Assembly (NCBI GenBank): GCA_947650365.1
Contig: OX393553.1
Coordinates: 65,227,611 to 65,291,610 of the forward strand
Direction of reading: 5' to 3'
Length of the DNA: 64,000 bases
DNA from: Chamaelirium japonicum
Lineage: Eukaryota > Streptophyta > Magnoliopsida > Liliales > Melanthiaceae
The notes beneath the pieces are model-generated. The model saw only the letters and a program-made list of their open reading frames with translations. It ran no database searches and was not told the origin of the DNA. A program made the translations under genes and the position numbers. Below are positions 8,126 to 59,337 of the stretch, piece by piece (position 1 is the first letter of the stretch; each line of letters starts with the position of its first letter).

Positions 8126-8376
8126 TTCCCTCTGTATCCAAGCGGTCAAGGAACGATGGGCGTAGATCCCCTCCGAAGAAGATTACATTCATGGATTGGA
8201 CTCTATCGATCGAGTAGATTCTCGATCGAATTCAACATGAAGAGTTCCTCCGAAGGCCTAATCCTCTGCAGCCTGATACCAAGGTGACAGCTGATAAAAC
8301 AGTCTATTTTGATTTCCACCGCAGCCATGCCCATCCTACCGATCGATGCTATTGACTGAGATATCATCTTGAGGAT

Positions 8377-9060
8377 TTGCTACGAGAAGGCCATCTCCAA
8401 GAGTTCGTCAAATACGGACAAGATCAACGCCGACCTTCTGCAAAGGGAAAAGACGCTTGCTGGATCCATCAAATCTCTACCGATCAATTACCTATCACTG
8501 TGCGTGCCAACGTCTTTGGCATTCACGGATCATTGCACAATCAAACATTGATGGGGAAAGAAGTTGATCGGCAAGTGCGATGCATCTTCAACATCCGCTC
8601 TGTAGCGAACAAAGAAGACACCTGGATCGAGAAACCTGTCAAGGGCCTAACTTGGCCATCCATCATCGTCAATGACTCTGATCTTCAAGGAGTCTATACT
8701 CCACATCGGGATCCCCTGGTTCTGAAGCTCATCATCGACGGAAGCACTATCAATTGCATCCTCATCGACACCGGAAGCTCTATCGATATCATGTTCTCAA
8801 ACTGCTTCAAACGCCTGGGACATAAATACTCAAGTCTTGAAGTCATCCCAACGGTGATCACGGGCTTCAACGGGGAGCAGAGCATAACAATGGGGGAATC
8901 AAGATTCACCCTTGACCTCAGCCGAGAGACTCGAGTCTCGGTAAGATTCGCCATCGTCGAAGGAACATCCAACTACAACATCATCCTTGGTCGACTATTC
9001 CTCCATCAGATCAATGCTATCTCCTCCTCCTACCATCAACTCCACAAGTTTGCAACATGA
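8377..9060 (+). pseudogene. Gypsy protease region
   Basis: Within this 227-residue frame the aspartic protease signature reads LIIDGSTINCILIDTGSS, with the DTGS active site around 8770. Downstream, ITGFNGEQSITMG and YNIILGRLFL are the flap-side and ILG motifs typical of plant Ty3/gypsy proteases. It lies between gag and reverse transcriptase, as expected. Confidence 0.85.
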
Positions 9061-9199
9061 GAGGTTATTGTCTGCATTCGAGGAGATCAACAAACTAGGC
9101 GATCCTGCGAAACGGCCGCTGCCAAAACTGATCACAGAATAAATCTCGCTCCCCCCAAAAGACATAGAGATGAAGCTGGTCCATCTTCACGATAGCAAC

Positions 9200-10116
9200 C
9201 AAAGGAGATCCCACTGTCCGAACCCCCGTCGATAAAGTGGGAGGCTTCACCTTCAATCGAAGAAATCACTCCAATCAATATTGGCAGTGAAGATCTCCCT
9301 CGAGAAACCTTCATCGGTACCGGTCTCAGTGACACAGAAGCACGAGACATGGTATCCTTCCTTCAATCCAACATTAACGTCTTCGCCTGGTGTTTTGAAG
9401 ATATGCCTAGGATCAACCCAGATGACGCGTGTCACCGACTCGCAATCAAAGAAGGAGTGAAGCCCGTCAAGTAAAAACCATGCACGATCCGACCAGAATG
9501 ACAAGTTGCAGTCCAAGAGGAGATCAGTAAGCTACTAGCAGCAGGCTTCATTCGTGAAGTAGAGTACCCTACTTGGATCTCCAATATAGTCATTGTTCCA
9601 AAGAAGAACGGAAAAGTCAGAGTATGCATCAACTTCACCAACCTCAACAAGGCTTGTCCCAAAGACCCATTCCCCATGCCAAGGATAGATAGACTCATCG
9701 ATGCCACTGCTGGCCACGAGCTCCTATCTTTTATGGACGGATACTCTAGGTATAATCAAATTCTGCTATATCCGGACAATCGAGAGAAGACATGCTTTGT
9801 GACTGACCGAGGTCTTTACTGCTACAACGTAATGCCCTTCGGCCTCAAGAATGCTGGATCAACCTATCAAAGGCTAGTCATAAAGATGTTCGAAGATCAA
9901 ATCGGACGCAACGTCGAAGTTTATGTCGACAATCTCCTCACCAAAAGTTTCAATCGTGAAAGCCACCTCTCTGATCTAGCGAAAATATTTCAAATCCTCC
10001 GAAAATACCGTATGAATCTCAATCCGGCTAAATGTGCTTTCGGTGTTCAATCGGGTAAATTCCGGGGTCATCTTGTGACCAGGAGAAGTATCGAAGCCAA
10101 CCCCGACCAAATTTGA
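9200..10116 (+). pseudogene. Gypsy reverse transcriptase
   Basis: The region before 9670 contains the GKVRVCINFTNLNKACPKDPFPMP block and the later frame holds LLSFMDGYSRYNQI, FVTDRGLYCYNVMPFGLKNAGSTY and the VYVD palm core near 9920-9935. These are the standard reverse transcriptase motifs of Ty3/gypsy elements. The sequence between protease and polymerase (RETFIGTGLSDTEARDMVSF) is also typical of the Tat/Athila group. Confidence 0.88.
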
Positions 10117-10128
10117 GCTATCCTCGAT

Positions 10129-11100
10129 ATGCCATCGCCTACTAATCGGAAAGAAGTACAACACCTCACTGGAAGATTAGCTACCCTCAATCGATTCATC
10201 TCGAAATCTTTCGACAAGTGCAAATCGCTCTTCGACAAATTACGAAAGACGGATACCTCTGGATGGAGTCCAACTTGCGAACAAGCTTTTCAAGATGTCA
10301 AAAGTTATATCGTACGAGCTCCTATTTTAACAGCTCCGCTCCCAAAAGAAGATCTCTGGCTCTATCTTGCCATCACTGATCAAGCAATCAGTGCGGTCCT
10401 GGTCAGCAGAAGAGAAGGCATCGAACATCCGGTCTACTACATCAGTCATATACTTCTTCCGGCAGAGACTCGCTACTCAAAGATTGAGAAGGTCATACTA
10501 GCCTTGCTCACCGCATTACGACGTCTTCAACCCTATTTTATCTCCCACCCGATCACAGTGATCTCAGAGCACCCACTCAAAGACATCCTCGACAAGGCAA
10601 GTCGAGCAGGTCGAATGATCAAATGGGTGATCGAGATGAGTGCTCTCGGGATTCAATTTGAACCTTGCACTTCACTCAAAGGGCAGGCAGTTGCTGACTT
10701 CCTAGCTGACTTCGGAAGACCCCATAACAGAGATGAACCTCCATTCAATCTGATTACAAAGACCAATCCAAGCTTTGAGGCTCCTGCTACCTCGCCAGCT
10801 CAATGGAAACTCTATACTGATGGAGCTTTGAGCACGATCGGTTCGGGAATTAGGATAGTCTTAGTATCCCCCGAACTTGATCATCTTCAAAAGGTCATTC
10901 TCCTTGGATTCAATGCTACCAATAATGAAACCGAGTACGAGGCACTCATGTCCAGGCATAAAATGGCTGAATCCCTGGGGATAGATCGACTTATCGTCTA
11001 CAGCGAATCCCAGCTAATAATAAGGCAGATCAACGGGGAGTACACGACGCGAGAAGAGAGGATGCAACATTACTTAGTTCTGGTGCGACATCACCAATAA
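10129..11100 (+). pseudogene. Gypsy RNase H followed by a second, archaeal-type RNase H
   Basis: The first RNase H covers roughly 10330-10720 (YLAITDQAISAVLV, VYYISHIL, RYSKIEKVILAL). A linker ending VADFLADFG follows. A second RNase H begins near 10800 with WKLYTDGALSTIGSG and continues through NNETEYEALM and LIVYSESQLIIRQINGEY. Two RNase H domains in a row mark the Tat lineage. The frame is open for 323 residues. Confidence 0.85.
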
Positions 11101-26929: not shown

Positions 26930-27370
26930 TCTCGTTATTTTCTTTTTTTTTCTCGGGCCGGGAGGGGCTCCACATAGGTTTTGGTTTGAACAATACTTCG
27001 CTCCAACATGTGTTGGATCGCGTGGCTCCTCTATCCGATGTGAACTGTTGGATGAATATCACTAGTGATTTTCAGCCGCTAACAAGTTCTGACAAAATAT
27101 CACTAGTGATATTTGCTGGGGCCTATTGCTGGAGCGAAACAAGAAGATCTTCACGGGCAGAATGCTATCCCTTGATCGAGTGTCTGACGAGATCTGGTCG
27201 CAATCCATCTTACGACTACTCACCTGGTACCTAGCTTGAAAAATTTACTTTTGCTTCTCATCTCTTTATTGTAACTCTCCGACCTTCTTTACCTATCCCC
27301 CTCTCTTTGTACTTTCTATTTTTTATTTAATTTACTTGTAGGGGTCTAGGCTGAACCCCCCTCCCCCTCA
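26930..27370 (+). mobile_element. LINE 3'-end fragment
   Basis: The block with CGGGAGGGGCTCCACATAGG near 26957 and the end GGGGTCTAGGCTGAACCCCC near 27340-27360 match, in the opposite direction, the LINE tails seen at 59340-59410 and 46860-46910. No reading frame of useful length remains. 27370-27610 between here and MULE-A shows nothing further. Confidence 0.45.
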
Positions 27371-27610
27371 TTGACTAAGAGGTGGACAGTAGCGAGGTCA
27401 GCAGACCCTCATGTCAAAATGTTTTATCTGGTTCACAGGGGATGGCATGTTGAAATAAATTAGAATTAAAACTAAGAGTAATTTGGTCCAAAGAAAAGTT
27501 AGGTTGCTAAACATTTGTTTTTCTGGAGTGGGCTCAGTTTAGACAATAGGACAAAGGTGATGCTTATTTTAGGCAAAACCTGTCTTTTTTTTTTTTTACC
27601 TGTAAATAAT

Positions 27611-28465
27611 GAGGTTTTTCCCAAAATGAGCACCAAGTTTGACCAATTACCCAAACTACTGCAGTTTTTTAAACCGTAACTTTTTTGCTCTCAGACACGT
27701 GACAAATAATTCACATGAGTCAGTTAGGATTTTTAGAGACCCTTTTGCCCTCTAGTCAAAAGGTAAAGAAACTGAACCTTTCTTCTTTCTTTTTCCCTCC
27801 GCGACCTTCCAAACCCCACCTGCGACCTCTGCAACCTCATCGTCGGCACTCTTCCTTGGCCGGAGATCGTCGGAAGATCACCGGAAGATCGTCGGAAGTC
27901 GTCGGAATCTTCATCCACGGTCGTGCAAAGCCTTTAAAGGTAAATCTTCGAACCCTAAACCACACTTTAACAAAAAAAATGGTTTTTTTTTACCCTAAAC
28001 CGTAAATCATGGGTGAAATTATGACAAACTAAATTTCATACCGTAAAATCTTGAATAAAATGGTTATTTGAGATTTCTTCGATTTGGTAACTACTTATGG
28101 CTTTCAAAAAATAGGTTTCAGATATTATAAAGATGTGAACAGGATATTGTTGATGATTAATTAATTAGGGTTTTTAATTTTCAAGGTTAAAATTAATTTT
28201 TTAAAAATTTATTGTATTTTTTGAAATGAGCTTTTACCCCATTATCAAACAATTTTGTTATATATTTCAGACCGCAAGTTATACTTGTATCGAACACAAA
28301 AATATTTTCTTAAAATTAAGATCTAATGCAGTAAATTTGTGTATCAAAATCAATGGGTTTATTGCAGTATTATTTGCGCTCGACACAAGTTCACTTGAGT
28401 TCGACGCATTTAAAGTTGTGTACTGTATGAGATGAACTTGCATAAGATCATCTCCAACACTTACT
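27611..28465 (+). repeat. MULE-A left terminal inverted repeat
   Basis: It pairs with 35680-36515. It contains a GC-richer block (about 27770-27940) ending GCCTTTAAAGGTAAAT, which looks like a 5' untranslated exon with a splice donor. The frame 27715-28005 and its mirror 36411-36103 are repeat shadows conserved only because the arms are alike. The arm ends with CATAAGATCATCTCCAACAC. Confidence 0.85.
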
Positions 28466-28822
28466 AAAATTTTTATTCAAATATGAGTAAAAACTCAATC
28501 TGATACAGAACACTCCAACCATTTACTCAAATTTGAGTTAAAACTTAATTTGGTATGAGTTTGAGTAAGGGTCGGAGCTGATTTTGGAGTTTTTACTTAG
28601 ATTTGAGTAAAAACTCATCGTTGGATGATAATTTTGTAAATATGGAGGTCCTTGGAGATGATCGTTAAGAATTTGGTATGGATTGAGTCTCCCCTGATTT
28701 GGTGTCAAATGAGTAAAACTCATTTTGGTATAAATATGAGTTTGACTTGAGCAGCTTTTGAGTATTTTTTACTCGGATTCAAATCTGAATCATGATTTGA
28801 ATATAGCTGGAGATGCCCTAAG
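28447..28822. mobile_element. MITE-like insert next to the left TIR of MULE-A
   Basis: The block begins GATCATCTCCAACA and ends GCTGGAGATGCCC, short inverted ends common in plant MITEs. Internally it repeats TGAGTAAAAACTCA-type palindromes. The right TIR holds only the first 25 bp or so of this insert. No coding sequence. Confidence 0.5.
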
Positions 28823-28913
28823 TTGTAGTAATTAGCATTTGGTGTAACAATGTTTTACTTTTTATACTTTTTTTATTCTTTTCTTAATATTATATGCAAT
28901 ATTATTTTTACAG

Positions 28914-31900
28914 ATGGGACGTGAAGGTCTTCGGAAGAGGCCACTGACACCATCCTCCAAACCACCTGTAAAAAGATCTAGAAAAATGGCATCTAGTTCA
29001 CCTACAATGAAATCTGAAAGGGAGTCATCCAAGTCACCTATCAAGAATTCTAACAAGAAGCCCCCCAAGTCACCTGCAAAGAAATTCGAAAAGGAGCCGG
29101 AAATCTCTACGAGAAAAAGAGGAAAGAAATCAAACGCTGGAAATGGTTCCAAAATAGAGAAAAGTATAAGCAATGCACCCGTTAATAGGTTGGAGTATAT
29201 GGCTCAACCATCAGCTAGGTGCAGTGTCTCATTCCTTGATGCTATCCTTGAGATGTTTAGAGATAATACTAATCGGATGGAATTGTTGAAGAAGTCTTGT
29301 TTTGGTCATATTTTAGATCTAAGGTATACCAAATATATGTTTCTTCCGATGCTTGCACATTACTTTTGGCAAAGACATGAGTCAGACTTTAAGTTTAATA
29401 TTAATGGTGTGATGATGAAATTCTCTCCCTTGGAGTTTACGTTGATCCTAGGGCTTAGGTATAGCGTTTCCACCCCTCCTCCAGACCTAGATACTGACAG
29501 CATTGGTGGTCCTTTGAAGAATAAATATTTTTATGGTAAGAAGGTGGTGGTAACCCAGAAATTATTGGTGGAAAAAATTAAAGAATGCAAAGATGATGTC
29601 GATGCAGTAAAGTTGGCATTGCTACTTCTATTAGAGAGTTACTTTCTTGGAGCCAATCCCGATGTTAGTATTCCTTTGATGCATTTAGAACTTGTGGATG
29701 ACTTGGACAAATTCAATAAATACCCATGGGGAAATGTGGCCTACAACAGTTTGAAGGCCGGTATGGAAGGTGCAATAAAGGGAGATAAGAGGCCAAAAAA
29801 ATATAATATCTTTGGTTGTGCATATGCACTTCAGGTATGACTACTTTTTAAACTAATTAGTATGTTATAGCATATTATCTATTATTTAATAATACTTGAT
29901 TATTTGGTTGCACATATATTTTGCAGGTGTGGATATTTGAACGGATCCCCCTTCTTGGAATGTTTTGCGCAAGAAAGCTGAGCACTGATACGAATCCTAG
30001 AATTCTTAGGTGGTGCGATTTGAAAAGTATCACCTACGATAGAGTATTCAAGTTTTTTAAAGAAAGAAAAGTAAGTTTAAAAAACTTAGTTTATATTTAT
30101 TTATATATAGATATATATATTAATAATATTCTAATTAATTAGTTGGGTTGATATATAGGTTCAAATTCTGGAAGAGTTAATTCCATCAAAAGTAGAAATG
30201 GAGGAGAATATCATCTGTCCCTTCTATGGCCGTGAATTATCTACTTCAACTGAAGGATCAATGGAAAGGGTTATGGAAGAGGAAGTCGATACGCCGAAAG
30301 AGGATAAGAATAAAGAGGATAAAATAATTGAGGACAATGCTGAAGAGAAAAAATCGAAAGGGGATAAAGGGATCCCTATATATTATTCTTTACCAACTTC
30401 ACAATATCCATTAGAAATAGTGGTAGAGGAACACCAAAAAAGAATCTCCTCACTTGAGGAGATTGTAGTGAAACAAACCCAGCTTATAAATGGACTCCAA
30501 CAAGAAATAAAAAAACTTAAAGGGCAACGCAAGGTTGAAATTTTTTCATCTCCACCTTCTTTCTCCAATGTGGATGACAAGGATTTTAATCCGATTGGTA
30601 CTTTGGATGATCTTATTGGTGCGGCTACTCAAGTGCATGTGGTGGAATACCAACAAGAGGTAAATTTTTATTCTTAAAGTGTATTTAGTTAATATGTATT
30701 AAAATTTTTTATTTGAATACTTACAAAATGATTGGTTGTATATTGTAGAGAACGGAGAGATTGGGACACGAGGAATCCCTCATTCAAGACTTTTGTATTA
30801 CACCACACCAAACTTATAGGGATGTAGAGGATGAGGGTGTGTCTCCTACTCAGATGGATTCAAATAGTAAGGGATATTCTCCTTCTCAGACGGATCCAAA
30901 AAAATGCGGTGATCCAGGTTTACATGAAGGGATTGAGAAATCCTTCGTTCGAGATCCAAACATAGTTGATGATCAATGTCCAAGTGATGTTTTGATGGTG
31001 CATTCCAAAAATGAAGAAAACAGAGGTTATGAAGAATCTATTGAGCCGGATCAAAATATAGTTGATGCATGGAGTGCAAGTAAAAAGGATGTTTCGACCC
31101 TACAAGAGAGCCAAACAAATAAAAAGGAACAGGTATAATAAAAATTCAACTACTAAATTTATTTTTTTATAATTATGATTTAATATTTTCTTTTATTTTT
31201 CTTGTAGGAGAAAGCTGCACCGGCAAGACGCGAATCACAGCGGATGAGAAGGCCAGGTCCACATTTATGTTCTCCATATACAGACCCATTAAATAGAAAG
31301 AAACTTTTGGCACAGTTGGAAGACGAGGTAGAGATCAAACCTGTCAAGTGGATGAAAAGACTTAACCATGAGGAGAGAAAATTTTGTATTGACTTCATGG
31401 ATGATAACCGTAGAGAATTGTATGTATTATGGTAGTACAATTAAATATAAATTAGAATGTCTTTTACAATTCATGATATAATTTCTATTAACTTCATGAT
31501 GTATGTTTTAATGTAGGGATAACATTATTATTGACGGGATTAATGTGAATCCTTTTTGGATTAAAGAACTCTATTCTAATGAAGGATGGGCACAAAGTGA
31601 AGTGAGTTATGCATACCATTTAATTATGATATAAGTTATCTCTAATATTATAATTTTTTTACTTATAATTATATTAATTTGATTACAGCACATTGATGCC
31701 TATATGTCTCTCCTGGAGACACGTTTTTAAGACATTTTGAGCACTTTCACAAGGTTAAGAAGATTGACATCTTTTTTGGCAGGACGTACTTATGGGTATG
31801 TTCGCTAATTCTAGTTTGATATATATTTTTTTATAAACTGCTAAACAAATAATTTCTAATAGGTTGTTTGTTGATTGTGACAGAATTATATGATATTGGC

Positions 31901-32453
31901 TTTCAATGAATTTAAGAGTTATATTAGAAAGGAACCTCAAGGAACAGATTTGAAAGTGCTAGCGAAGAGTTTTAAGTGGTCTGAGTCTTTGAAGCAGATT
32001 ATGTTAGGAAACGGGGATCGAGTCAAAAATGATGATGGTGTATTTTATCCGATATGGAAGTGTGCACATGCTATAATCCCTGTCAATTATAATAACATGC
32101 ATTGGTATCTTGTGAACATGTACATGCAAGAGAAGAAGTTGCTTATTATTGATTCATTATATCAATCCTCTCATATCGAGTATAAGGAAGATATTGAAAA
32201 GATCTTGCATATCTTACCTATTGTACTCTATAGTTGTGGACATGATGCTGCTTTCGATGGCGACAAATGGACAGCGTACAAGGCGATGAAGACCACAATA
32301 CCAAGGCAACTAAATGGATATGACTGTGGGATTTGGGTTATGTCCTTCGCTAACTACTTCACCTGCAATAAAGAATTGGACTTTAAGGATGCCGACATGT
32401 GTGCTTTTCGGCGGCGGATTGTATATCAACTTTTGATAAAATATGTGGAATGA
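28914..32453 (+). pseudogene. MULE-borne Ulp1-type cysteine protease gene with DUF1985-like N-terminal domain
   Basis: Exons inferred from splice sites and phase: 28914-29834, 29927-30070, 30159-30659, 30749-31132, 31208-31419, 31517-31601, about 31689-31797, 31884-32453, giving about 970 residues. The ATG directly follows an acceptor-like TTTTTACAG, so a 5' untranslated exon probably lies in the TIR. Residues 1-90 are Lys/Ser-rich. A DUF1985-like globular region covers about 95-300. Middle exons are acidic with a coiled coil. The last exon is a peptidase C48 domain with His in NMHWYLV, Asp in LLIIDSLY, Gln in RQLNG and Cys in YDCG, so the catalytic set is complete. Such proteases remove SUMO-like modifiers. 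The small exon near 31689-31797 seems to hold one frameshift (LLETRF against HFEHFHKVKK), so the copy may be inactive. Confidence 0.78.
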
Positions 32454-32604
32454 TGTAACTTGACATGTGTACTTTATGGTGGCATTTTGTAACTTGAAAT
32501 GAATGGTCTATGGTGTTTTGTAATATGAATATTTTTATGTCTGTCTTATTTTGAGCACCAATGAGTGTTTGTTACCGAGGTGGAATATTGAATGTTATAC
32601 CCAA

Positions 32605-32775
32605 TAGACAAATATGTACTGCGTCCAACGCAAGTATGGTTTGTATCGAATGCAATATTTTGGCTAGAATCATCATCCCTGCAATTGAGCACAAATATGT
32701 ACTGCGTCCAACGCAAGTATGGTTTGTATCGAATGCAATATTTTGGCTAGAATCATCATCACTGCAATTGAACGC
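32605..32775 (+). repeat. Two tandem copies of an 81-bp motif (third copy at 34320-34410)
   Basis: The phrase ATGTACTGCGTCCAACGCAA, followed by TATCGAATGCAATATTTTGGC, is repeated at 32614 and 32695, and again with changes at 34324. The copies surround the GRF gene. Related GTATCGAACACAA text occurs in the TIRs. Confidence 0.8.
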
Positions 32776-33576
32776 AAACTATACTTGCGTACGATGCAAT
32801 TTTTTAACAGTTCTTATCACTGCTCCTTGCGTTCACAATAGTTCTCAATAATACTCAACAGTTCTATAAAAACCTATCATCCCTGTCCTTTCTCTGTGAT
32901 TTTCTTTATAGAGGAGTAGTCGAACGACCCCTTCTCTGCAATTTCCATTGGAGAGGACGACGCGGAGGGGTAGAACACGGATCCGACTTCTTCTCCTCCG
33001 TGGCCACACAGATCAGACTTCTTCTCATCGAAGGTATGATCGCATCCCCCTGGATTGATCACTTCAGAAAGGGAAGGGGGCAGCTCCTTTCTAGGTCCTA
33101 AACCCTTCATAAGTCCCCCCTTTCTTCTTCTAGGTATTTGCCATTTGTTTTACTTGCAAATGGTTTAGTCGCTCCCTTAGATCTAACTAGATCATATGCT
33201 TATTCTCCATTCTTAAAGATTTAAAAAAAAAAACTAATTTTTTCTTGTTTAAATATATTGACTGCTACAGAGGGATCCTATAAGATTTTTTTAAAAAAAC
33301 TAATTTCTTATTGTTTAACGAGATCAGCCCATTTATCCGTTGACTGTTACAGAGGGATCCTATAAGATTTTTTTTTAAAGAGATGGTGTCATCTAAATTG
33401 TAAGATCCAAATATGTATCATGCATGTAGGTATTTCTTTATGTGATTTTTTATGTGGTTTTTTCTGTACCAAATATGTATCATCCAAATATGTAAGATCC
33501 AAATATGGTTTTTTTAAAGAAATGGTGCCATCTTGATTGTCATTTTTATGTGGTTTTTTTTTAAACAGACTCAAAT

Positions 33577-34017
33577 ATGAGCTCAACGATATATCCGAAT
33601 TTCACATGTCCATGTGGTGTTGGTTTTTGTAAGATAAAGACATCCCGCACATCAAAAAATCCTGGAAGAATGTTTTATACATGTCCACTACCAGAGGTAC
33701 ATTATAATTTACTTTGAATAATATATATGCCCTTGGAATAAGATATAGATTTGTATTACCCATTTATTGTTAATACATGATTGCAGGGCAATCGATGTCA
33801 GTTTTTTATGTGGTGTGATGAAATTCAAAAGATGATTATTCATAAATGCACGTGCGAGGAGACGATACACCGCTTGGAGGCTGAGGTCGAGGGGTTGAAG
33901 GGAAAACTCCATGAGTGTCATATGATGATGAAACAAATGCGACAAAAAATGCTTGATGGAGCGATGGATAGTTTGTCGTTACTTCAAGATTTATCTTCGT
34001 TAGAGTTGACTGATTAA
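33577..34017 (+). CDS. GRF-type zinc-finger protein carried by MULE-A (116 aa, two exons)
   Basis: Exon 1 is 33577-33696 and exon 2 is 33787-34017, joined in phase 0 by a GT-AG intron; the combined frame is open. The N-terminus reads FTCPCGVGFCKIKTSRTSKN, then PGRMFYTCPLPEG, then CQFFMWCDE. This matches the GRF zinc finger (C-x-C-G, C, C pattern with the GRxF core and FFxWxD). The C-terminal half (about residues 55-110) is heptad-like and probably a coiled coil. GRF fingers bind single-stranded nucleic acids in some proteins. The ATG at 33577 gives the full finger. No damage is visible. It lies between the protease and transposase genes inside the MULE. Host origin or transposon function is unknown. 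Confidence 0.72.
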
Positions 34018-34695
34018 AAATATTGTAATATTTTTCTGAATTTGGGTATGGGGTGCCATAAATAGATCCCCCTTGTTTTAGTTCAAAAATAATATTATTT
34101 TTAAAAAATTTTAAGCCACACTTGTATAACAGCATAGTAAGGTGATTGCAATATAATTTGTTTAATAATTTTTAACTTTGATTACTTAAATAATTTATTT
34201 AATACCTGTCCAAATTCTCAAATACTGTTGCCTGTGATTGTTCAAATTTCTTATGCCCCTTATTTCATTTCTCATGCTTCTTGCAATTAGCTCGATTCAT
34301 CATTCCTGTAATTGAGCACAAAGATGGACTGCGTCGAACCCAAGTATGGCTTGTATCGAATGCAATATTTTAACTAGAATCATCATCACTGTAATTGAAC
34401 ACAAACTATACTTGCGTACGACGCAATTTCTTGTTTTCTGCAAAAGGTGTAATTGCGTTCAATTGCAAAAGGTGTCATTGCTTGTTTTCAACGCAAGTCC
34501 TATTATAGCATGCAGTATTAACAGTATCCAATCGCAATAGTCATATTAAAGATATCGATTATCTAAGTCATTGTATCTAATTACAAGTAACCAAAATTGC
34601 ACAACCATCCAATTACAAGAAACCAGAATTTCAAAAGTCATTGTATCCAACTACAAGTCAACCAAAATAAGATCTCTCAATAAAGTAAAATATAG

Positions 34696-35397
34696 TTATC
34701 CTTGCTCGATTGGTTTCTTACAAGCTCTTCTATTGTGCCCAGTCTGTTTGCATCTGCCACACTTTACGGTCTTCCGTTCTTCACCTTGTGATAATATTCT
34801 TTTTTTCTTTGGCCTCCCTAGTGGAGTCTTTCCCTTAGGTGGTAGCAATTGATCATCTTTAACTATGTTATCTGAAATCAGCCACTGATTTTTATCAGAA
34901 ACTGGGTAGATGGACTATTCATACGTTGAATCATTCAAATATTCTTCTGAATCTTCTATCTTAGCAATTGAAGAAAAGGGAAAAGCATGAGACAGAGAAA
35001 CTTTGGGAAAAACTTTTTCTTTTTCGTCTATCTTCCTCTTACAAGTAGATATTGGAATAGAAACATATTTGGAGCATTTACGGTTTCTTGTTACTAGTAA
35101 TGGGATATTGGACATCACATTGCGTATATTGTGGGCAATGAACGCGCATGCATCATCATTATCCACAATCTTTATAGGCGGACAAGGGATCGTACTTGGA
35201 TACAAAGCTTTAAGAGAAATGTCATATTCTTCGACGTCAGACTTTGTTATCTGATAGATTTTCTGAATAAGTTGGTCATAGTCGCTTGATAAAGATAAAA
35301 GAAAAGTTTTGAATATTCCCCCCTGGTGCTGGTATTTATTTTTGACTTGAATGAATTCTCTATCATAGATACATAAAATCGGTAATAGTGAATCCAT
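34696..35397 (-). pseudogene. MULE-A transposase gene lacking its catalytic core
   Basis: Starting at MDSLLPILCIYDREFIQVKN (start chosen because MULE-B has the same beginning), the N-terminal domain runs about 160 residues. It then passes directly into the C-terminal tail of MULE transposases: SIYPVSDKNQWLISDNIV, LGRPKKKRILSQGEE and the zinc knuckle CGRCKQTGHNRRAC. The DDE and SWIM domains present in MULE-B are missing, so about 2 kb were deleted. The two parts are in one frame except for a single TAG at 34915-34917. A catalytic role is impossible; a DNA-binding remnant is conceivable. Confidence 0.82.
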
Positions 35398-35679
35398 GCC
35401 TGAAAATGATAAGCGAATGAAACTGGCATAAGGCACAATGTATTAATTTTTGTAATAGTTAAAGCAAGTCCTAACATAAATAGTTGAGCTGTATATAAGT
35501 ATCTATTTTGAATGTAGCATCCAACGCATGCATGCTTATGTTATAAAGAAGATGTTCAAAAATAATGATCTTGTATCCAACACAATATTATTGAGTTGAT
35601 TCTTGCATTCACTATTTCAAAATCTTTATCATGAATCTCAAATCATCTCCACACATACGCAAAGTTATAAAAAAATTTC

Positions 35680-36515
35680 AGTAAGTGCTGGAGATGATCT
35701 TATGTAAGCCCATCTCATGCAGTACACAACTTTAAATGCGTCGAACTCAAGTGAACTTGTGTCGAGCGCAAATAATACTACAATAGACCCATTGATTTTG
35801 TATACACAAATTTACTGCATTAGATCTTAATTTTATGAAAATATTTTTGTATTCGATGCAAGTATGACTTGCAGTCTGAAACATATAACAAAATTGTTTG
35901 ATAATGGGGTGAAAGCTAATTTTGAAAATTACAATAAATTTTTAAAAATTAATTTTAATCTTGAAAATTAAAAGCCCTAATATCATGTTCACATCTTTAT
36001 AATATCTGAAACCTATTTTTTGAAAGCCCTAAGTAGTTACCAAATCGAATAAACCTCAAATAACCATTTTATTCAAGATTTTAGGGTATGGAATTTAATT
36101 TGTCATAATTTCACCCATGATTTAGGGTTTAGGGTAAAAAAAACAAATTTTCTTGTTAAATCGTGGTTTAGGGTTCGAAGATTTATCTTTAAAGGCTTTG
36201 CACTACCTTGGATGAAGATTCCGACGACTTCCGGCGATCTTCCGGTGATCTTCCGACGATCTCCGGCCAAGGAAGAGTGCCGACGATGAGGTTGCTCAGG
36301 TCGGAGGTGGGGTTTGGGAGGTCGCGGAGGGAAGAAGAAAGAAGAAAGGTTCAGTTTCTTTACCTTTTGACTAGAGGGCAAAAGGGTCTCTAAAATTTCT
36401 AAATGCCTCATGTGAATTATTTGTCACGTGTCTGAGAGCAAAAAAGTTACGGTTTAGAAAACTGCAGTAGTTTGGATAATTGGTCAAACTGGGTGCTCCT
36501 TTTGGGAAAAACCTC
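35680..36515 (-). repeat. MULE-A right terminal inverted repeat
   Basis: Complement of 27611-28465 with scattered changes. It holds the same untranslated-exon-like block and would place the same promoter upstream of the minus-strand transposase gene as the left arm does for the protease gene. It is followed by the duplication gtaaataat. Confidence 0.88.
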
Positions 36516-36524
36516 GTAAATAAT

Positions 36525-36840
36525 TAGATGCAAGCGGGGACGGGTCCCATGTATCGGGTACCAACTCCAAGAATACTTTTTGGACCGCTAGATGCTTGGC
36601 AGAACAATTTTTTTTTCTTTTTTCTTTTTGTCTCCTATGGGGAAAGATCCAAAAATATAAAATATGAGGGCATCTTTCCTATACTTTTCTTTCTTTATTT
36701 TTATTTTTTTCTTGATCATGGCTGGCTGCTTGCCCTTATGCGCTGTTGGCATCTTGATTCTCTGATTCCTATATTCCTATGCTGTCTTGCTTATGGCCCA
36801 ATCGTGATGCGCCACATCATCCATTAAAAAGGGCATAATG
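36525..36840. other. Intervening DNA, nothing recognised
   Basis: T-rich stretch with ORFs lacking any domain. It lies between MULE-A and the copia 3' region. Confidence 0.45.
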
Positions 36841-37860
36841 GCTAACGCCCAGTAGCAAGTGTAGTCACTGTCAAGGGAAATACGACTGACCAACATTGAG
36901 AGGCGAGATACCAATGACTAGAGAATAGAAACATGCATTTACGTGAAAAAACCCTACCCAATACCGGAGGAAAATATTCGTGCGGAATGGCTCAGACGAG
37001 ATCTCGATCCGTCGCCTCATGCTCGCGGAAACGATCTAGGGTTTTCGGATCTCCGACGATCTGAATAGAAAGATCGAATCCACCAAGTACGATCCAACAA
37101 TCACAGAGAAAATTGAACAAAGAAACAATCCACTTGACACAGAGATTTGATCACGCAGTTCGGAAATCCCTACCTATGCGGCGTCAGTCAGCGTCATTGG
37201 AGCAATGGAATTAGATCTTGGAGTTTACAACCCTCTTCTTCTTCCTCGCTCCACCGGATCTCAAGGAGATCAATCTCCTCTCATGATCCACGATCTTCTT
37301 CGTCTCTAAAATACAAGCGAGAAGCCCGAAGAAAGACCCTAAAACGAGCCATAAACACAATGACAACCCCTTACAAAATCTAGGATTAAAACCCTATTTA
37401 AAGCCTCACAAAATCGTGCAACCGCAGGTCCAACCCGTGTACGTTTAGTGCCTGGCGCCCAGTGACGCCCAGGGCGCCGTCAAGGGCGCCAACCTATAGC
37501 CCTGTCGAAAACCACAAAAAACAACTAGCGCCCAGGGCGCCAACCCGAGGAGGTGGCGCTCATCAGTGACCGGGCACCACACACCTGACGTCCAGGGCGC
37601 CATCAGCCTGGAGAGTAGCGCCCTGGGCGCCACACTGTAGGCGCCCAGGGTGCCAACCCGAGAGGGTGGCGCCCGTAAGAGACTGGGCGCCGCACAGTTA
37701 GCGCCCAACGCGACGTTCAGCCGACGGGCACGCTCAAACTTCGCTCCGAGCCTTCCTCTCGCTCTCCGTCTTTGCCGAAACTGAGCCAAACTTTCGACCA
37801 ATGCTACCGTTCCAGCGAACCTCCACCTTGGCGAGTCTCAACTCGCCTCCATCGCACATT
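36840..37860 (-). repeat. Probable copia 3' LTR with GGCGCC-rich block
   Basis: It lies downstream (minus strand) of the copia RNase H and has no coding domain. 37440-37720 is packed with GCGCCCAGGGCGCC-type palindromes and makes a spurious 118-residue frame. A purine-rich AGGTGGAGG on the minus strand near 37825 may be the polypurine tract. The outer end near 36840 is a guess. Confidence 0.45.
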
Positions 37861-47592: not shown

Positions 47593-49071
47593 TGACACAG
47601 GATGTGGTGATGAAATTCAACCGAAGCCTACGTCTCCGTACGGTAAGACGAAACCTTTGAATCCACTATCTCTGAAGAAGTAGCGCTACTCTCGACAGGC
47701 CGAGGAGTGCTTATACAAGTAGGTAGAGGGTGGAGTAGGCTTGGTGAAGTCTGATCACCAGAAGGCTTAAGAAGCTCTAGAAAATAGAAAGTGGGATGTG
47801 TGATAATATAATTCGATCTGGAATATTTGTCGGGTTTCCTATTTATATAGGTTTGGGAATATCAGGGGTTTGGTTAATATCTGGGCGATTTACTAGACCC
47901 CGAATAGTATCTGTGGGCCCCAGGCAGGACTGCGGATCCCACTGTTCTCTCCATGGGTCGCAGGTAGGGATACGGGTCTCACCGTCGTCTTCGTGGGCCC
48001 TAGAAATAATTGCCGGTCTCCATGGCCCCAAATAGGGCTGGGGGTCCCACTGTCGGGTGTTAGCCAGATTTTACACCCACAAGCACCTCCTCCAATTGTT
48101 GCCAAACATACTGACATGACATGATAAGAGGGCAAACCTTAACGATACTCCCCACACCCAACAAAACGGCATCGCACGCCTTACTAGCATCAGTGAATGC
48201 CACCACACGGGAGTAATTCCCTCGCAACACTTCCTCCAAGGCCCCTTTTAGGGTCCATAACTCCACTAACAGTACTGCAGAGTGTACGTAACACCGAAAA
48301 ATAGTTGCCGCACACACCACGCTCTTCCAAGGTCGCGACAACCCAAGATCCACTCGCAATCTCCTCTTGAGATTGAATGGCACCATCCACCCAAACAATA
48401 AACTCCGCCTTGTCATCCAAACCCACCGTAGGTCAACTGGCCTGGCTGTGGTATAAGAATTGGGCTAGCTCAGAACGGCCCTGAAGAACTATAGCCATGT
48501 TAGACAACACACATCCTCCACGTATTTTCGCACGCCTCGCCATTCACAGTCCCCACATGACCATCGCCATGGTCTCACCTGGTATCGGCTCATGCCGCCG
48601 CCGCACCTACTGAGAAACCGGTTGCTCAATGTCTTTCTCCGGGGACGGACACCAAGGACTGACGCCATAGCCCATCCCTTTACAAGAATTCATGATGTAG
48701 CAATTTGACAAGTTCTTTGTTATTTGAGATGCATTTGGTGTGGCTCTAAACTCTGGCTATCCTCTTGATTCCTACAGTTTGAGCAATCGAGAGTACATGT
48801 TGCTTCCACAGTAGAGTGCTGCATGAAACAAGATGGCATATCCGTCGAGGAGGCATATGAGAAGCTTCGAGGAATGGTGGAAGACGCGTGGAAAGTTATA
48901 AACCTGGAGTGCCTTGAGCAGATTGTAATCCCCAGGGCGCTGATGGTACCGATCGTTAATCTCTCATGCTTCGTCGAAGTGGTCTACAAGTATGGCGATG
49001 GATATACTCACCCTGCAACATTATTGAAAGACAAAGTTTCCTTTGTGCTGGTCGAACCTGTTCCCATATGA
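44498..49071 (+). CDS. TPS: Terpene synthase, TPS-a/b type, probably a cytosolic sesquiterpene synthase (578 aa, 7 exons)
   Basis: Exons 44498-44680, 45001-45268, 45357-45741, 46004-46222, 46363-46501, 46594-46842 and 48778-49071 join with GT-AG introns to an open frame of 578 codons plus stop. Seven exons and this length are standard for class III plant terpene synthases. The protein has no long plastid signal: [15 protein letters not shown] starts at residue 36, a variant of RRx8W with Pro for the second Arg. The N-terminal helical domain covers about 36-215 and the metal-binding domain about 270-540. The active site is intact: RDR at 294-296, DDFYD at 331-335 and NDIVSHEFE (475-483; N, S and E in the NSE/DTE positions). 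The enzyme would ionise farnesyl (or geranyl) diphosphate with Mg2+ and cyclise it. The product cannot be read from sequence. The last intron (1.9 kb) is filled by a LINE and a solo LTR. Confidence 0.93.
46852..48760 (-). mobile_element. LINE fragment in the last intron of the terpene synthase gene
   Basis: A T run at 46852-46868 is the poly-A tail of a minus-strand LINE, next to the family tail GAGAAATCCCTCT. Moving up the minus strand are [19 protein letters not shown] (about 47130-47075) and [21 protein letters not shown] (about 47400-47330). Beyond a nested LTR comes an RNase H-like domain (48426-48090: [49 protein letters not shown]). It is 5'-truncated, with the far end near 48700-48760 uncertain. 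It lies antisense to the host gene and does not remove the splice sites. Confidence 0.85.
47421..48081 (-). mobile_element. Solo LTR of a Tat-like gypsy element, antisense, inside the LINE
   Basis: Read on the minus strand it starts TGTGGGTGTAAAATCTGGC and ends TCCCCCACA, matching the start and end of the LTR at 5627-6559. It also shares GGAGACGTAGGCTTCGG and weak copies of the GGGACCC...CTGCC minisatellite. The flanks ggcac (47416-47420) and agcac (48082-48086) form a 5-bp duplication with one mismatch, and the LINE coding sequence continues on both sides. A (GA)n run at 47560-47590 lies within it. No internal part is left. Confidence 0.8.
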
Positions 49072-50034
49072 GAGGGAGGCCTACAACTACATTCTTATGC
49101 AGACTTATTATGTATTGTATTTGTACTCAGTCATGTTTGTTCGGTTCTAATAACAAGGGTATGATTGAACCAATTTGAGAGAAGTACCAGTTAGGACCAC
49201 CCAACTACTATCAAAAATATAAAATAGGACCACTTTTGAAAATAAGTAGAAGATAGGGATCATTTGGATACCATAACAATTTATGTTAGGGAGCGGCTAT
49301 ATACAAAGCATTATTTAATTTCTAAAGACAGGTCGTGATCAAAGGCAGCCTTATAAGTTATTGCATTTTGCTAAGGATAGCTCACGACTATAGGCAGCCC
49401 CTAGATGATGTAAGCAGCCCACCGTCTATTGCTTTCCTTCCTCCCCTGCTCGTCGGTGCTTCTGATCTCGAGCAAATCATCGCCTCCTCCTTCTCTTCCC
49501 ACTTTATCTTCCTCCACCTCCGCCCCTCCTTCTTCCTCCTACCCTCGGCCATTTCAGGCCGAGTGATTCTACAACCCATTCGTCCTGAAGAGACTGTGTA
49601 TTGTAATGGCACTCGGCCACCAATGATAGAATGGTTTGTTGGGGCGCTCGGAGTCTAATGATTGAATGGTCAGTGGGAGCACTCGGCCTGAAATGGCCAA
49701 ATGAGATGTAGAGAGTAGTAGAGGCGTAAGAAGAAGAGGAAGGCAGCAATACAAGTGGATTTTTCCAACATATTTTTTTTCTTCTATCAGTCTAATATGG
49801 AATTTTGCCGACGGCAATAATAATTGCCGCTGGCCAAAACCTATTGAGTTTTTAAACTTTTTTGGTTTTTTTATTACTGTCGGACGTTTAGTTTCTGTCG
49901 TAAAAAATAATTATACCGATGGATAGGATATGACCCCCATTGGTAGAAGAGTATTTACTACCGCTGGAACACAAACAATTCGTCGATACAATATTTTTTT
50001 AAAATTTATTATTTTTTTATAGTTATGCCTGATG
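49072..50034. other. Region 3' of the terpene synthase, no gene recognised
   Basis: Frames such as 49335-49658 show no domain. A perfect 19-bp inverted repeat (GGCCATTTCAGGCCGAGTG at 49549-49567 and its complement at 49679-49697) frames a small hairpin-like block. From 49800 to 50010 the text GCCGACGG / ACTGTCGG recalls CACTA subterminal repeats, so this may be a remnant of a non-autonomous CACTA element. Confidence 0.5.
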
Positions 50035-50269
50035 GAAAATAAAAAGGTTTTTACCGAAATGGCCACCAACTCTCAACTATTGTTGAGAATGGACCCCATT
50101 GAGAAATCTGAACGAAAATGGCCTTTAGCACGTGTGAAACAGCTAGCATGGTGACACTAAACTGGTGAAAAGACATTTTGATCCTTACCTTTGTAAAAAC
50201 CCATTGTGGCTAGGTTTCTTACCCATTTCTGATAAATCCAGATGTTTGCTTGGTTTTCGTCTCGATCAA

Positions 50270-50480
50270 CCGTTGTTGAGGCTTCGTCGGACCGCCTCTA
50301 TTTCAACCAGTGTCCATTTCAAGCATCGTTGAGGCTTCGTCGGACCGCCTCCATTTCAACCGGCGTCCATTTCAATCGTCGTTAAAGCTTTGTCAGAAAC
50401 CACCCCATCTTATTTGTCGAAAATCGCCTCCATTTCAACCATCATTGAGGCTTTGTCGGAAATCATCGCATCTTATTTGT
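50270..50480 (+). repeat. Short tandem repeats in the leader region of MULE-B
   Basis: A unit of about 58-62 bp (GAGGCTTCGTCGGACCGCCT, then CCATTTCAACC) recurs three to four times, with later copies diverged. It lies where MULE-A has its untranslated exon. Confidence 0.7.
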
Positions 50481-50869
50481 TGCCAGAGGAGGCTCGTGGT
50501 CGGAGAGAGGTCGCCGACGGTACACAGAAGGCTTGGAGTTCTTCGACGAATTAAGTTTGCCGAGGTATGTTCTATAAACCCAAATCTTAGCCCTATGTTT
50601 TTATTTAATTTAGTTTTTTCTAATTATCCCACATTGTGATCTGGATATTTTTTTAGAACTAAATTATGCCTTAATTTCTCGTAAGAGGTACAACTCAGTT
50701 CTTATACTAAGAAACTTTTACTCCCCAAATTGTTTTGTTCATATTTCACTCCCCAAATAGGCCTAAATTTTTCTAAATTTTTTCATCAAATTTTTTCATC
50801 AATTTTAACATGCCTTAATTTCTTTTAAGAGGTATAGCTCAGTTCTCTTACTAAGAAATTTGAGAAAAA

Positions 50870-52709
50870 AATTTTCTTACTTGAGGAGAAATATGCAAAG
50901 ATGATCTCCTCAATGGAGGAGAAATATGAGAGGAATATCTCCTCAATTGAGGAGAGACATACGGAGGAGTTCTCTTTACTTAGAGAATAATACAATCAAC
51001 ACTGCATCAGTGTATACAATCAGGTAAACCAACAATAATTCCTATATTTAATTATTTATATACTTTTTGTATATATATATTTATTGACTTTATGTTTATA
51101 TTGAACGGTATGTGCAGAAGGAGAAGGAGAATGAAGACAGATTCTCTTTATTTGATTAGGATTTGGGCATCGAGAAGAAGAATGAGGAAAAGAATAAAGG
51201 CGAGGTAGAGGGTGATAGACAAGGAAAGGAAGGAGAAGCGAAGGCAAAGGATATTGAAGAGGAGGGAGCCGAGGTGGAGGGAAAAGAGGAGAATGAGAAT
51301 AAGAAGAGGGAAACTAAGGAGGTGAAGGGAACGGATCACAAGAAAAGTATCATTGATGTAGATATGCTTTCGATCAGCAATCCATTAAAAGTTTTTACAT
51401 CACAGCGGATAAAGAAACTGGGTCCGCTAATATGTTCTCCATATACCACCAACAAAACGAAAACTCTCCGTAAGGAAATAGAATAAGAGGAGATCATGGG
51501 CGTGGATAAATATATCAAAAGGCTATCGTCTGAAGAGCAAGAGTCAATGATAGCTTTTCATGATGGAAACAGAAATAAATTATAACTTATTCACTATATA
51601 ATCCATTTTGGAAGGATAACACATTTTGTCTCTTAATAATTTATGGGATTATTGTCACTATAGACCATATTTTTAATTGATGGGATTGTTGTAATCCTTT
51701 AATTAATTAACAAACTATGTGAGAGAATATCATGGGTGATGTGCGAGGTGAGTGTATATCAATTATCATTTTTGATATCTCGATATATCATATTCAATAT
51801 TATAAAACTATATATTATTGCAGCATATTGATACTTATATGTACTTGCTTAAGGAGCGCATATTAAGGAATTAGAGCCCCGGTACATTCACCATTTCTAT
51901 AGCTTGGACATATTATTGGGTATGTCTCTGATTCTTAATAGTATTTGTATAAAAAAATTTCTTAGAATTCAATAAATATTTAATATTTATTTATGAATTT
52001 AAAATATTATGTCAAAGTTGCTATTAGAGTTGGAAGGACTATGTACAAAGCCATGATGGAATCCCAAATTATACTAAGCTTATACATTCTTTCATCACAT
52101 TATATAGGTGGTTGAAAGGATTCAGGAGTAATGTAAAAGATAAGAAAGAGGATTTCAAACCGATATGGCGGTGTTCATACATTATCATCCCTATCAATAA
52201 AGAAAACCTCCATTGGTACCTTGGAATTCTCCATATAAAAGATCAGAAATTATTTTTGTTAGACTCTCTTTACAATGACCATGTTTCTAAGTATAGTAGA
52301 AAACTCCAATCATTTTTAGAAATTCTACCAATGTTTTTATATTTTTTGGGAGATGAAAATGCTTAGTTAGGTGCAAAATGGACGGCCAAAAATAATAAAG
52401 ATGACCTTCCTAGGCAAATAAATGGGTAAGTTTATATTACTAAATACTGAAAAATTATTAGTCATTTTATATAACTAACAATTTTATATGTTATATAGGT
52501 ATGATTGTGGTGTTTTTCTTATAACTTTTGCAAACTATTACAACAGCAACCAGAAGCCGGATTTCAGTCAGGTATAATATTAAGTTGTTTACAACGTAGT
52601 TATATTTCAATAATTACACTTATAATCTAATTGTTTATATTTGCAGGTTGATATGACATCTTTTCGAAGGAGAATTGCGTGTCAAATCTTGCCTAAATAT
52701 ATGGACTGA
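50870..52709 (+). pseudogene. MULE-B Ulp1-type protease gene, reduced
   Basis: The DUF1985-like N-terminal part of MULE-A is absent. What remains: a coiled-coil-like piece (EEKYAKMISSMEEKYERNIS near 50885-50990), a charged exon ending TSQRIKKLGPLICSPYTTN (51163-51486; MULE-A has SQRMRRPGPHLCSPYTD), an HIDTYMYLLKERI exon near 51824, and the peptidase core at 52100-52709. The core keeps His (LHWYLG), Asp (LLDSLYND), Gln (LPRQING) and Cys (YDCGVF), the last after a GT-AG intron at 52426-52499, and ends QILPKYMD. Several stops lie between (for example after GDENA and after RKEIE), so it is a pseudogene in spite of the complete catalytic set. Confidence 0.75.
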
Positions 52710-52884
52710 AGAGTTGACAAGACTGAAGGACTGACAAGGCTTTCTAATTGTGTAGAGTTTTATAATTGTAAATTTAATTTATATGAAGTTATCTAATTAT
52801 AAACTTGAGTAATATTGTTATATGGGATAATGTGAAGTTATGTAAACTTAAGTAATCTTGTTATGTGAAGTTATATGAAATCAT

Positions 52885-53785
52885 GTGGAGTTAATATTTC
52901 GTCTCGACAAATACACAGTCATGGCTTACCCGAGACTGGCCAACTCAAAGCCTGTGAAAAATTAGATAAAAATGGGACGAAATATAATATTTCGTCAATG
53001 TTTCATCTCAACAGATACACAGCCATGGCTTACCCGAGACTAACCAACTTTATCCTGTAAAAATTAGACAAAAGTAGGACGAAATATAATATTTCATTAA
53101 TGTTTCGTCTCGACAGATACACAGTCATGAATTACCCGAGACTGGTCAACTTCAGCCTGTGAAAAATTAGACGAAAGTGGGATGGAAGATAATATTTCAT
53201 CAATGTTTCGTCTTGACAAATACTCATGGCTTACCCGAGACTGGCCAACTTCAGTCTATGAATTAGACAAAAGTGGAAGGAAAGATAATATTTTGTCAAT
53301 ATTTCGTCTCGACAAATATAATCATGGCTTACCCGAGACTGGCCAACTTCGATCTGTGAAAAATTAGATGAAATTGAGATGAAATATAATATTTCGTCAA
53401 TGTTTCGTCTCAACAAATACACAGTCATGGGTTACCCGAGACTGGCCAACTTCATCCTGTGAAAAATTAGACAAAAGTGGGACGAAAGATAATATTTCGT
53501 CAATGTTTGTTCTCGACAAATACACAGTCATGGATTACCCGAGACTGGCCAACTTCTCCCTATGAAAAATTAGATGAAAGTAGAAGAAAATATAATATTT
53601 TGTCAATGTTTCAACTCGATAAATACACAGTCATGGCTTACTCGAGACTGGCCAACGTCATCCTTTGAAAAATTAGACGAAAGTGGGACAAAATATAATA
53701 TTTCGTCAATGTTTTGTCTCGATAAATGCACAGTCATGGCTTACCTGATTCTGCTAACTTCGGCTGTGAAAAATTAGACAAAAAT
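52885..53785 (+). repeat. Satellite-like array of about 101-bp units between the MULE-B genes
   Basis: Nine units align on TTTCGTCTCGACAAATACAC, then AGTCATGGCTTACCCGAGAC (starts near 52894, 53000, 53103, 53206, 53304, 53403, 53505, 53607 and 53710). Units vary by about 10% and in length. The 61-67-residue frames reported by simple translation are the repeat itself. Confidence 0.93.
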
Positions 53786-54599
53786 TAATAGGCTCTTGAA
53801 ATTGGGTACTAAAACATGTAAAACCTATAGAGATTTATAGCCATATAAAACCTGTAGACATACAAAATTATGGATCATAGCACGGATTTAACTAGATCTC
53901 CAAAAATGTCATTATAATACTTCACTCGAAGATGATCTCCAAAAATATCATTACAATATTTCACTCGAAGCTGATTTTGAATATGATTTCTAGAAATGCG
54001 ATTACAATACTTCACTCTAAAATTTTTGTTCAAACATGCACCATAGCCACACTTAATACTTTACAAAAGTTAGATACTAAATTAGAGTTCTCCTTACATG
54101 TCATTACAATAACCTTTATTTATATTACAATAAATATAAATATAAATGCTATCATAGCCAAAAGTACTCCTAACATGCAAAACCTACACTCCCGAGTGGT
54201 AAACTTATGAGCGAGAGGTACAAAAGGGGCGCAATATGAAGGTGCAGGATACTTGCTATCCAAAGAGATATCACGATTACTATTAGGAGGGTGATAATTA
54301 CTTTGGAACTTAGATAAGTGATCTTCATAAATGATACAAAGATCCTTCATAGCCATTAACTTATCGTTGACACTCCTCCCAATTGTAGTAAATGTCAGGT
54401 CTTCTGTCCACAAATACCATATAATACTTATTTGCCATAAGCTCGATACCTGTACAATCATATCATTCAATAAGTTTATAAGATGTTCAATAAATAATTA
54501 AATATATAAATGAATAAGAAGAATAGTTATTCATAATATGTATTGAACAAGTAAAAAAACATGATACCTTTACTCTACAATAACAGAAAAATTATATGA

Positions 54600-57416: not shown

Positions 57417-58079
57417 TTTTTTAAATCCCTGTTAGCATAGAATCACAATATCAAAACTCAACAATATAAAATTTAATATCAAAGATTAATCAAATTTATC
57501 CAATACAAAATAGACTCATCACGACTAACAATTCTTATTTATTTTTTACTTTTAAACTCTTTGATCAAAATATAAAATGTGATGCTAATATTCAGCTAAT
57601 TTTGTTGATTTCGTTCCTCTTTTGTCATAACTATATTGATGAATAGCTAATTTTATCGATTTCATCACTTTTTCATCATAAAATATGATGTTACTATTTT
57701 AAGCATAGAATCACAATATCAAAACTCACGAGTCTTGATAGTGAAGTATAGGAGTCGTTGAAAGGGTGAAGTGTAGGAGCCATCGAAAAGGATGAAATGA
57801 AGGAAGACTCATGAGTTTTGATGATCACTGTTGAAATGGGTGGCCGGTTGTCCCACAGTTGTCGTCGAATAATTGCCATCGAAAGAGGTGGAGGAAGCCA
57901 CCGTCCAAATGAGGGGAGTGAAGGGAGACTCAATGAAAGATAGGGTTTTAGTAAAAGGGTAGTTTGGTTCCAAAGAGTTTCAATGGTCATTTTGGAAAAG
58001 CCAAAAGCAGCCTGACCCATTCTCAACAATAGTTGAGAGTTGGTGGCCATTTCGGTAAAAACCTCAAAATAGAATATAC

Positions 58080-59335: not shown

Positions 59336-59337
59336 AA

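Follow-up and report, generated by a model that had tools for sequence, protein, structure and literature searches.

Does a transposon that has lost most of its own transposase carry its remaining genes as chance cargo, or as parts of a system to which they belong? The question is raised by a Mutator-like transposable element (MULE) in a 64,000-nucleotide stretch of the Chamaelirium japonicum genome (contig OX393553.1, positions 65,227,611 to 65,291,610 of the forward strand; hereafter the window), in which a DUF1985-Ulp1 protease gene and a GRF zinc-finger gene accompany a gutted transposase. Here, we find that this element belongs to a MuDR-type MULE family, which we call family A, as a non-autonomous copy shortened by deletion. 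Full-length members of about 11.3 kb are predicted to encode the MULE transposase together with two accessory proteins, one of the Kaonashi/VANC type with DUF1985 and Ulp1 domains and one small, with a GRF finger and a coiled coil. Taking the evidence together, the element is probably a family-A deletion derivative mobilised in trans, with Ulp1 and GRF as helpers.

The boundaries of the element are exact. Comparison of its terminal inverted repeats (TIRs) and target site duplication (TSD) places it at 27611-36515, flanked by the perfect 9-bp duplication GTAAATAAT at 27602-27610 and 36516-36524. The TIRs begin GAGGTTTTTCCC and are 91.7% alike over 865 aligned bp (left against right, inverted), with an outer 391 bp that aligns without gaps at 93%. 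A 9-bp TSD, long TIRs and a MULE transposase in full-length family members are the hallmarks of a MULE, and the original prediction of such an element with terminal repeats of about 850 bp and a perfect 9-bp duplication proved correct. Its trio of genes, a Ulp1/DUF1985 gene, a GRF gene and a gutted transposase, was likewise recovered by Pfam and by comparison with full-length relatives. No Rfam match reached the gathering score within window positions 27000-37000. The features are as follows, in window coordinates:

27602-27610, no strand: left TSD GTAAATAAT, the same 9-mer as at 36516-36524
27611-28474, plus strand: left TIR, about 865 bp, 91.7% alike to the right end, inverted
28914-32453, plus strand: DUF1985-Ulp1 (Kaonashi/VANC-like) gene in several exons, frameshifted here (Pfam PF09331, PF02902)
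31724-31728, plus strand: T run one base short, the Ulp1 frameshift (17 copies aligned, the run short in 2 and long in 15)
33536-34126, plus strand: GRF cassette, about 595 bp, 86-87% identical to two FAR1-type MULE copies and 84% to two further loci, L051 and L052
33577-34017, plus strand: GRF zinc-finger gene, 116 amino acids (splicing read, PF06839)
34699-34914, minus strand: transposase C-terminal remnant with a CCHC-like zinc knuckle, near-identical in its letters to the C-terminal end of the full-length transposase
34918-35442, minus strand: transposase N-terminal remnant, by comparison with the full-length transposase
34921-34929, no strand: deletion junction, about 2.24 kb of transposase gone (DBD, MULE and SWIM domains), relative to full-length copies and with the sister copy L019
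35671-36515, minus strand: right TIR, by TIR comparison
36516-36524, no strand: right TSD GTAAATAAT, the same 9-mer as on the left

Left and right TIRs differ by at least about 8% in the copies compared, a divergence that was considered as an insertion date and rejected. Left ends at different sites are up to 99% alike and so closer to one another than to their own right ends, which places the left-right difference before the insertions.

The transposase deletion identifies the element as a derivative that has moved. Its junction carries the microhomology TCA and is followed just beyond by an in-frame stop (34915-34917); the N-terminal remnant has no Pfam match, and the C-terminal remnant gives weak, sub-threshold zinc-knuckle matches. 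A sister copy on contig C1 (L019) is 99.2% identical across the whole 8.9 kb and shares both junction and stop, yet it is flanked by a different TSD, TTGTTCTTT. The presence of the gutted form at two sites indicates that it transposed after losing its catalytic part, presumably moved by a transposase made elsewhere.

Related loci were sought in the host assembly, which comprises 1.52 Gb in 3253 contigs and has the window on its contig C5. These searches scored 40 of 147 TIR candidates, 150 of 236 GRF candidates and 150 of 636 Ulp1 candidates, so that the absences reported here are lower-bound statements. The genome-wide TIR count proposed in the original prediction thus stands at no fewer than 40 matches scored of 147, and together with the GRF, Ulp1 and transposase loci described below it led us to reject the possibility that the element is unique to this locus. 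Four uninterrupted full-length family-A copies are 11221-11367 bp long, and a fifth extends to 14099 bp; perfect TSDs flank five of the seven copies examined, a sample that includes two deleted copies and in which one of the five TSDs is a T run. The full-length transposase at C2:4946718-4958213 contains MULE (PF10551, E 1.1e-21), DBD_Tnp_Mut and SWIM domains by Pfam, and transposase exon 2 is open at 8 of 27 family-A loci. In family A the GRF gene is convergent to the transposase, and the Ulp1 gene lies on the strand opposite to it, as it does in the window element.

Copies of family A differ in which parts they retain. L021, for example, lacks Ulp1 and L025 lacks GRF, while four derivatives without a catalytic transposase still carry GRF (L019, L053, L054 and L055), among them one with GRF only and 3.8 kb between its ends (L055). 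The family therefore offers natural "knock-outs", lacking GRF, Ulp1 or transposase, in which the need for each part can be tested. L053 and L054 represent a rearranged form in which GRF and a scrap of transposase accompany an inverted Ulp1 gene, and their far ends lie outside the sequence compared; spacing and strands suggest two more copies of this type, at C12:18667076 and C4:28957840. We also noted sister MuDR-type families with open transposase frames of 644 and 700 amino acids (for example at C2:97603564, C8:32449929 and C1:22881263), for which equal-score matches at many loci suggest recent activity.

Whether Ulp1 and GRF genes always travel together had been posed as a test of the original prediction, and mostly they do. 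Among the matches listed, the family Ulp1 lies within 10 kb of 34 of the 40 GRF loci at 85% identity or above, and GRF lies within 10 kb of 39 of the 42 Ulp1 loci at 72% or above. (These counts used 81 exon-2-type GRF rows, with exon-1 rows excluded, and 45 Ulp1 rows, comprising the 42 at 72% or above, after 7 second fragments were merged into loci, and 3 weaker ones.) Six old, diverged loci (GRF 64-85%, Ulp1 72-87%) retain the pair as well. Counting instead from the 27 family-A transposase loci, and additionally taking in the remaining listed weak Ulp1 rows, we found GRF nearby in 25 and Ulp1 nearby in 25; GRF is therefore present in, not absent from, most other family members.

The sister families show a different distribution. 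Around sister transposases (63-69% identical), none of 42 loci had a GRF within 30 kb among the matches listed. With 150 of 636 Ulp1 candidates scored, a related Ulp1 (42-43% identical) was found within 10 kb at 13 of 18 loci of one sister group and 11-27 kb away at six of eight loci of two small groups, and none was found within 10 kb at 16 loci of the closest sister group. This distribution suggests, without proving, that Ulp1 is the older gene in the clade and that GRF was a later, stable gain of family A. The term cargo, used in the original prediction, is apt in that accessory genes are carried, but it undersells them, since both genes are part of the full-length family and a second MULE family carries GRF too.

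The two accessory genes differ in their state in the window copy. The GRF gene is intact and consists of two exons (33577-33696 and 33787-34017, including the stop) separated by an intron at 33697-33786. Its product combines a GRF finger (PF06839, E 1.4e-15, scoring 57.5 bits where the cut-off is 25.9) with what by eye is probably a coiled coil, and the finger matches in sequence the GRF chains of NEIL3 and of APE2 type, the latter named DNA-(apurinic or apyrimidinic site) lyase. The DUF1985-Ulp1 gene has a DUF1985 exon at 28914-29837 (PF09331, E 4.2e-16) and a protease exon at 31884-32453 (Peptidase_C48, PF02902, E 5.2e-18); the latter retains His, Asp and Cys motifs by eye and matches SENP/Ulp1 structures. 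A T missing from the run upstream of the protease exon, common to the window copy and L019 and found in none of 15 others, shifts its frame, so that the undamaged frame originally predicted holds for GRF alone. GRF is open in 13 of 14 copies read. We rejected the open frame in this copy as proof of function: GRF exon 2 is open at 34 of 40 loci, against 34.4 expected from decay.

GRF is not confined to Ulp1-carrying elements. Among the matches listed, 30 GRF loci show 62-84% identity; 25 of them lack the family Ulp1 within 10 kb, and a FAR1-type transposase stands beside 12. We therefore rejected the idea that all GRF copies belong to Ulp1 MULEs. A further 13 of these 30 cassettes lie near neither Ulp1 nor a FAR1-type transposase. 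One MULE copy of the second family, family B (C298:20900-32000, GRF locus L050 with L058), has inverted repeats of 1154 bp that are 93.7% alike, and its open transposase frame of 826 amino acids contains FAR1, MULE and SWIM domains; this transposase and that of family A are 22% identical over 325 residues. Its sole blastn match to the window element is a block of about 595 bp at 86.6%, which consists of the GRF gene with a bit of leader, the intron and the 3' untranslated region (UTR). Between families, the exons of this cassette are 90-92% identical and the intron and 3' UTR 81-82%, and similarity drops directly beside it, to 42% upstream and 35-38% downstream. In two copies of the GRF-carrying FAR1-type MULE (L050 with L058, and L049), long (TA)n runs adjoin the element, on both sides in one and on the left in the other; the flanking runs make its TSD unreadable, and the element may prefer TA microsatellites as targets.

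The position of the cassette in this second family resembles that in family A. GRF lies within 12 kb at 13 of 36 FAR1-type transposase loci (at least 70% identity; this count additionally took in 3 exon-1-only GRF rows), and in all 13 it is on the opposite strand, on the 3' side of the transposase. Family-A Ulp1 was found at none of the 36, and 19 more distant FAR1-type loci had no GRF match among the matches listed. A tree of 41 cassettes sets 17 apart from all the Ulp1-linked ones, on a branch with support 100; none of these 17 has the family Ulp1 nearby, and 11 stand beside a FAR1-type transposase. Three family-A copies without Ulp1 (L021, L046 and L055) group with family A.

Comparison of the cassettes between families indicates that GRF has not simply decayed. 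Using 14 cassettes per side, with C preferred over T and G over A in the subfamily sequences when the minority base reached at least 35%, we counted 15 synonymous and 14 nonsynonymous differences between family A and the FAR1 side, a ratio of nonsynonymous to synonymous rates (dN/dS) of 0.30. Simulation without selection gave a mean of 21.6 nonsynonymous differences (P 0.002). Against four FAR1-side subgroups and a single cassette (L042), family A gave values of 0.28, 0.30, 0.32, 0.37 and 0.29, and subgroup B1 against L042 gave 0.31. The dN/dS analysis that had been suggested for both genes thus returned a divided answer for GRF, constrained between families and near neutral among young copies, and it was divided for the Ulp1 gene as well. 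Its protease exon shows a nonsynonymous deficit (22 of 42 changes, P 0.009, one of 7 stretches examined), while DUF1985 shows no constraint. Open protease frames number 28 of 32 against 22.1 expected at the transposase decay rate (P 0.014), a tally of full-length exons at 87% or above whose exclusion of split and truncated exons favours open frames; together these results are weak evidence of constraint on the protease exon. Where family-A copies depart from the majority base, the change is mostly C-to-T or G-to-A; such changes exceed the reverse transitions more than 10-fold in rate, as would be expected of heavily methylated, silenced copies.

Several observations weigh against a family-A derivative served by selected helpers. 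Among young family-A copies, GRF is near neutral: its ratio is 0.72-0.75, and nonsynonymous changes make up 27 of 40 (P 0.24). The ratio was taken from 9 to 14 copies per exon, each with coverage above 90%. No constraint is seen in DUF1985 or in transposase exon 2. The count of open GRF exons (33 listed without a stop and one whose listed stop falls outside exon 2) is what the transposase decay rate predicts, assuming a transposase mean of 620 codons. The between-family dN/dS is based on 29 differences in 348 bases, and values rise to 0.47-0.76 against two single decayed cassettes (L043 and L047) and to 0.52-1.08 between close subgroups with few differences. GRF can also be absent from individual copies: the copies without GRF or without Ulp1 imply that neither gene is strictly needed in cis, and among the matches listed Ulp1 is missing within 10 kb of 6 of the 40 family-A GRF loci, as is GRF within 12 kb of 23 of the 36 FAR1-type loci. 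The combined picture is the one usual for transposon genes, in which single insertions decay while the moving lineage stays constrained.

How one cassette came to stand in two MULE families can be explained in several ways, and either one exchange or two captures would account for its distribution; the data give no direction. We tentatively put forward that GRF is a selected, exchangeable helper owned by transposons and passed between MuDR-type and FAR1-type MULEs, as Ulp1 recurs across transposon groups. A helper role would explain why two very different families carry GRF in the same convergent position, and by analogy with known fingers a small single-strand-binding helper would be the most economical reading of its presence in both. 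It is somewhat unlikely that the two families instead captured the cassette independently from one selected host GRF gene and gained nothing from it. A selected donor would likewise yield a low between-family dN/dS, the cassette breakpoints lie near the gene ends, the two cassette groups separate, and the donor may be among the 13 cassettes at 62-84% placed in neither family, some of them open (L032, L042 and L044). However, GRF persists in old family-A copies, and the best stop-free GRF match outside both groups is 46% identical among the matches listed (150 of 236 candidates). No host donor locus was recognised among the GRF matches listed, in which those 13 cassettes have no assigned host element.

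We regard it as unlikely that GRF, and with it Ulp1, is a transduplicated host gene amplified in Pack-MULE fashion without any function for the element. Capture of gene sequences by MULEs is described as frequent (PMC2528002, in the part consulted), and the near-neutral changes and decay-like frame counts within family A fit such an origin. It sits poorly with the purifying signal on GRF between families, with exons better conserved than intron and UTR, with joint inheritance of GRF and Ulp1 that extends to old diverged copies, with retention of GRF in derivatives lacking a catalytic transposase, and with the presence of this gene, again convergent to the transposase, in another MULE family. 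A further reading, that the cassette is a small mobile element in its own right which entered several MULEs, is very improbable: although it forms a fairly sharp block of about 600 bp within differing flanks, its borders show no terminal repeats or target duplications by eye in the alignment, and in each of the two families the gene occupies the strand opposite to the transposase, beyond its 3' end.

In the helper model that we favour, transposase from full-length relatives would act on the TIRs and move the derivative in trans. The DUF1985-Ulp1 protein would serve as an anti-silencing or deSUMOylating helper, and its link to SUMO, which the original prediction had proposed, is suggested by its domain. 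GRF fingers of NEIL3 and APE2 bind single-stranded DNA. The element's GRF protein may bind single-stranded nucleic acid as these do, and might aid transposition or shield the DNA or RNA of the element from silencing. NEIL3 and APE2 are host repair enzymes, whereas here the finger stands alone with its probable coiled coil.

The closest known systems include Ulp1-carrying MULEs of melon, rice and grapevine, and the earlier statement that such elements are known was borne out (PMC2528002, as far as its text was available). Kaonashi (KI) MULEs of Arabidopsis are described there as combining a mudrA-type transposase with a Ulp1-domain gene in reverse orientation, and the window element likewise has its DUF1985-Ulp1 gene opposite to the transposase. 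KI elements are, however, described as non-TIR MULEs, and we therefore file the window element, whose TIRs span about 865 bp, under Ulp1 MULEs with TIRs rather than under KI. The three-gene plan, the DUF1985 in an accessory protein and the SWIM and CCHC motifs of the transposase also recall VANDAL elements with their VANA, VANB and VANC genes. In the excerpts compared, VANC proteins contain DUF1985 (PMC5735166), the VANDAL-group transposase has SWIM and CCHC (PMC6446971), and the TIRs are degenerate (PMC10398659) or, in some of the group, 46-174 bp long (PMC6446971), unlike those of the window element.

By its domains, the DUF1985-Ulp1 protein appears to be of the KIU/VANC type. A 2026 review, in the text available, counts Ulp1-bearing KIU genes among VANC genes and still calls the function of Ulp1 genes in plant transposons unknown (PMC13317346). 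Proteins of this type are associated with sequence-specific loss of DNA methylation at related Arabidopsis elements in the portions of the literature compared (PMC5735166, PMC10398659, PMC13317346). Grapevine MuDR-like and Jittery-like MULE families can carry accessory ULP genes, according to the sections of PMC2528002 consulted. Family B, with its FAR1, MULE and SWIM domains, resembles the Jittery-like group but differs from it in that its accessory gene is GRF, with family-A Ulp1 at none of the 36 FAR1-type loci. We take FAR1-domain transposases such as that of family B to belong with Jittery.

GRF is not mentioned in the available text of the Kaonashi and Ulp1-MULE literature compared. Searches of open-licence papers returned no GRF gene as a regular companion of Ulp1 MULEs, in keeping with the prediction that this addition is less described, and no GRF cassette common to MuDR-type and FAR1-type MULEs. 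Ulp1 in MULEs was already known; as far as these searches go, the GRF companion and its sharing by two families appear to be new. A gene that travels with Ulp1, is constrained, and occupies the same place in a distant family provides a testable case for helper genes owned by MULEs and exchanged between them, as opposed to the picture of MULEs as haulers of random host fragments.

Other probable transposons lie in the window. A second, decayed Ulp1-carrying MULE is represented at 52106-52429 (plus strand) and 55514-56005 (minus strand), with a Ulp1-like fragment 41% identical to the Ulp1 of the main element and one open reading frame (ORF) judged by eye to resemble part of a MULE transposase; a search for inverted repeats of at least 50 bp in window positions 49000-60000 returned none. 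Long ORFs at 7139-11100 resemble by eye parts of the gag and reverse transcriptase of a gypsy-type long terminal repeat retrotransposon.

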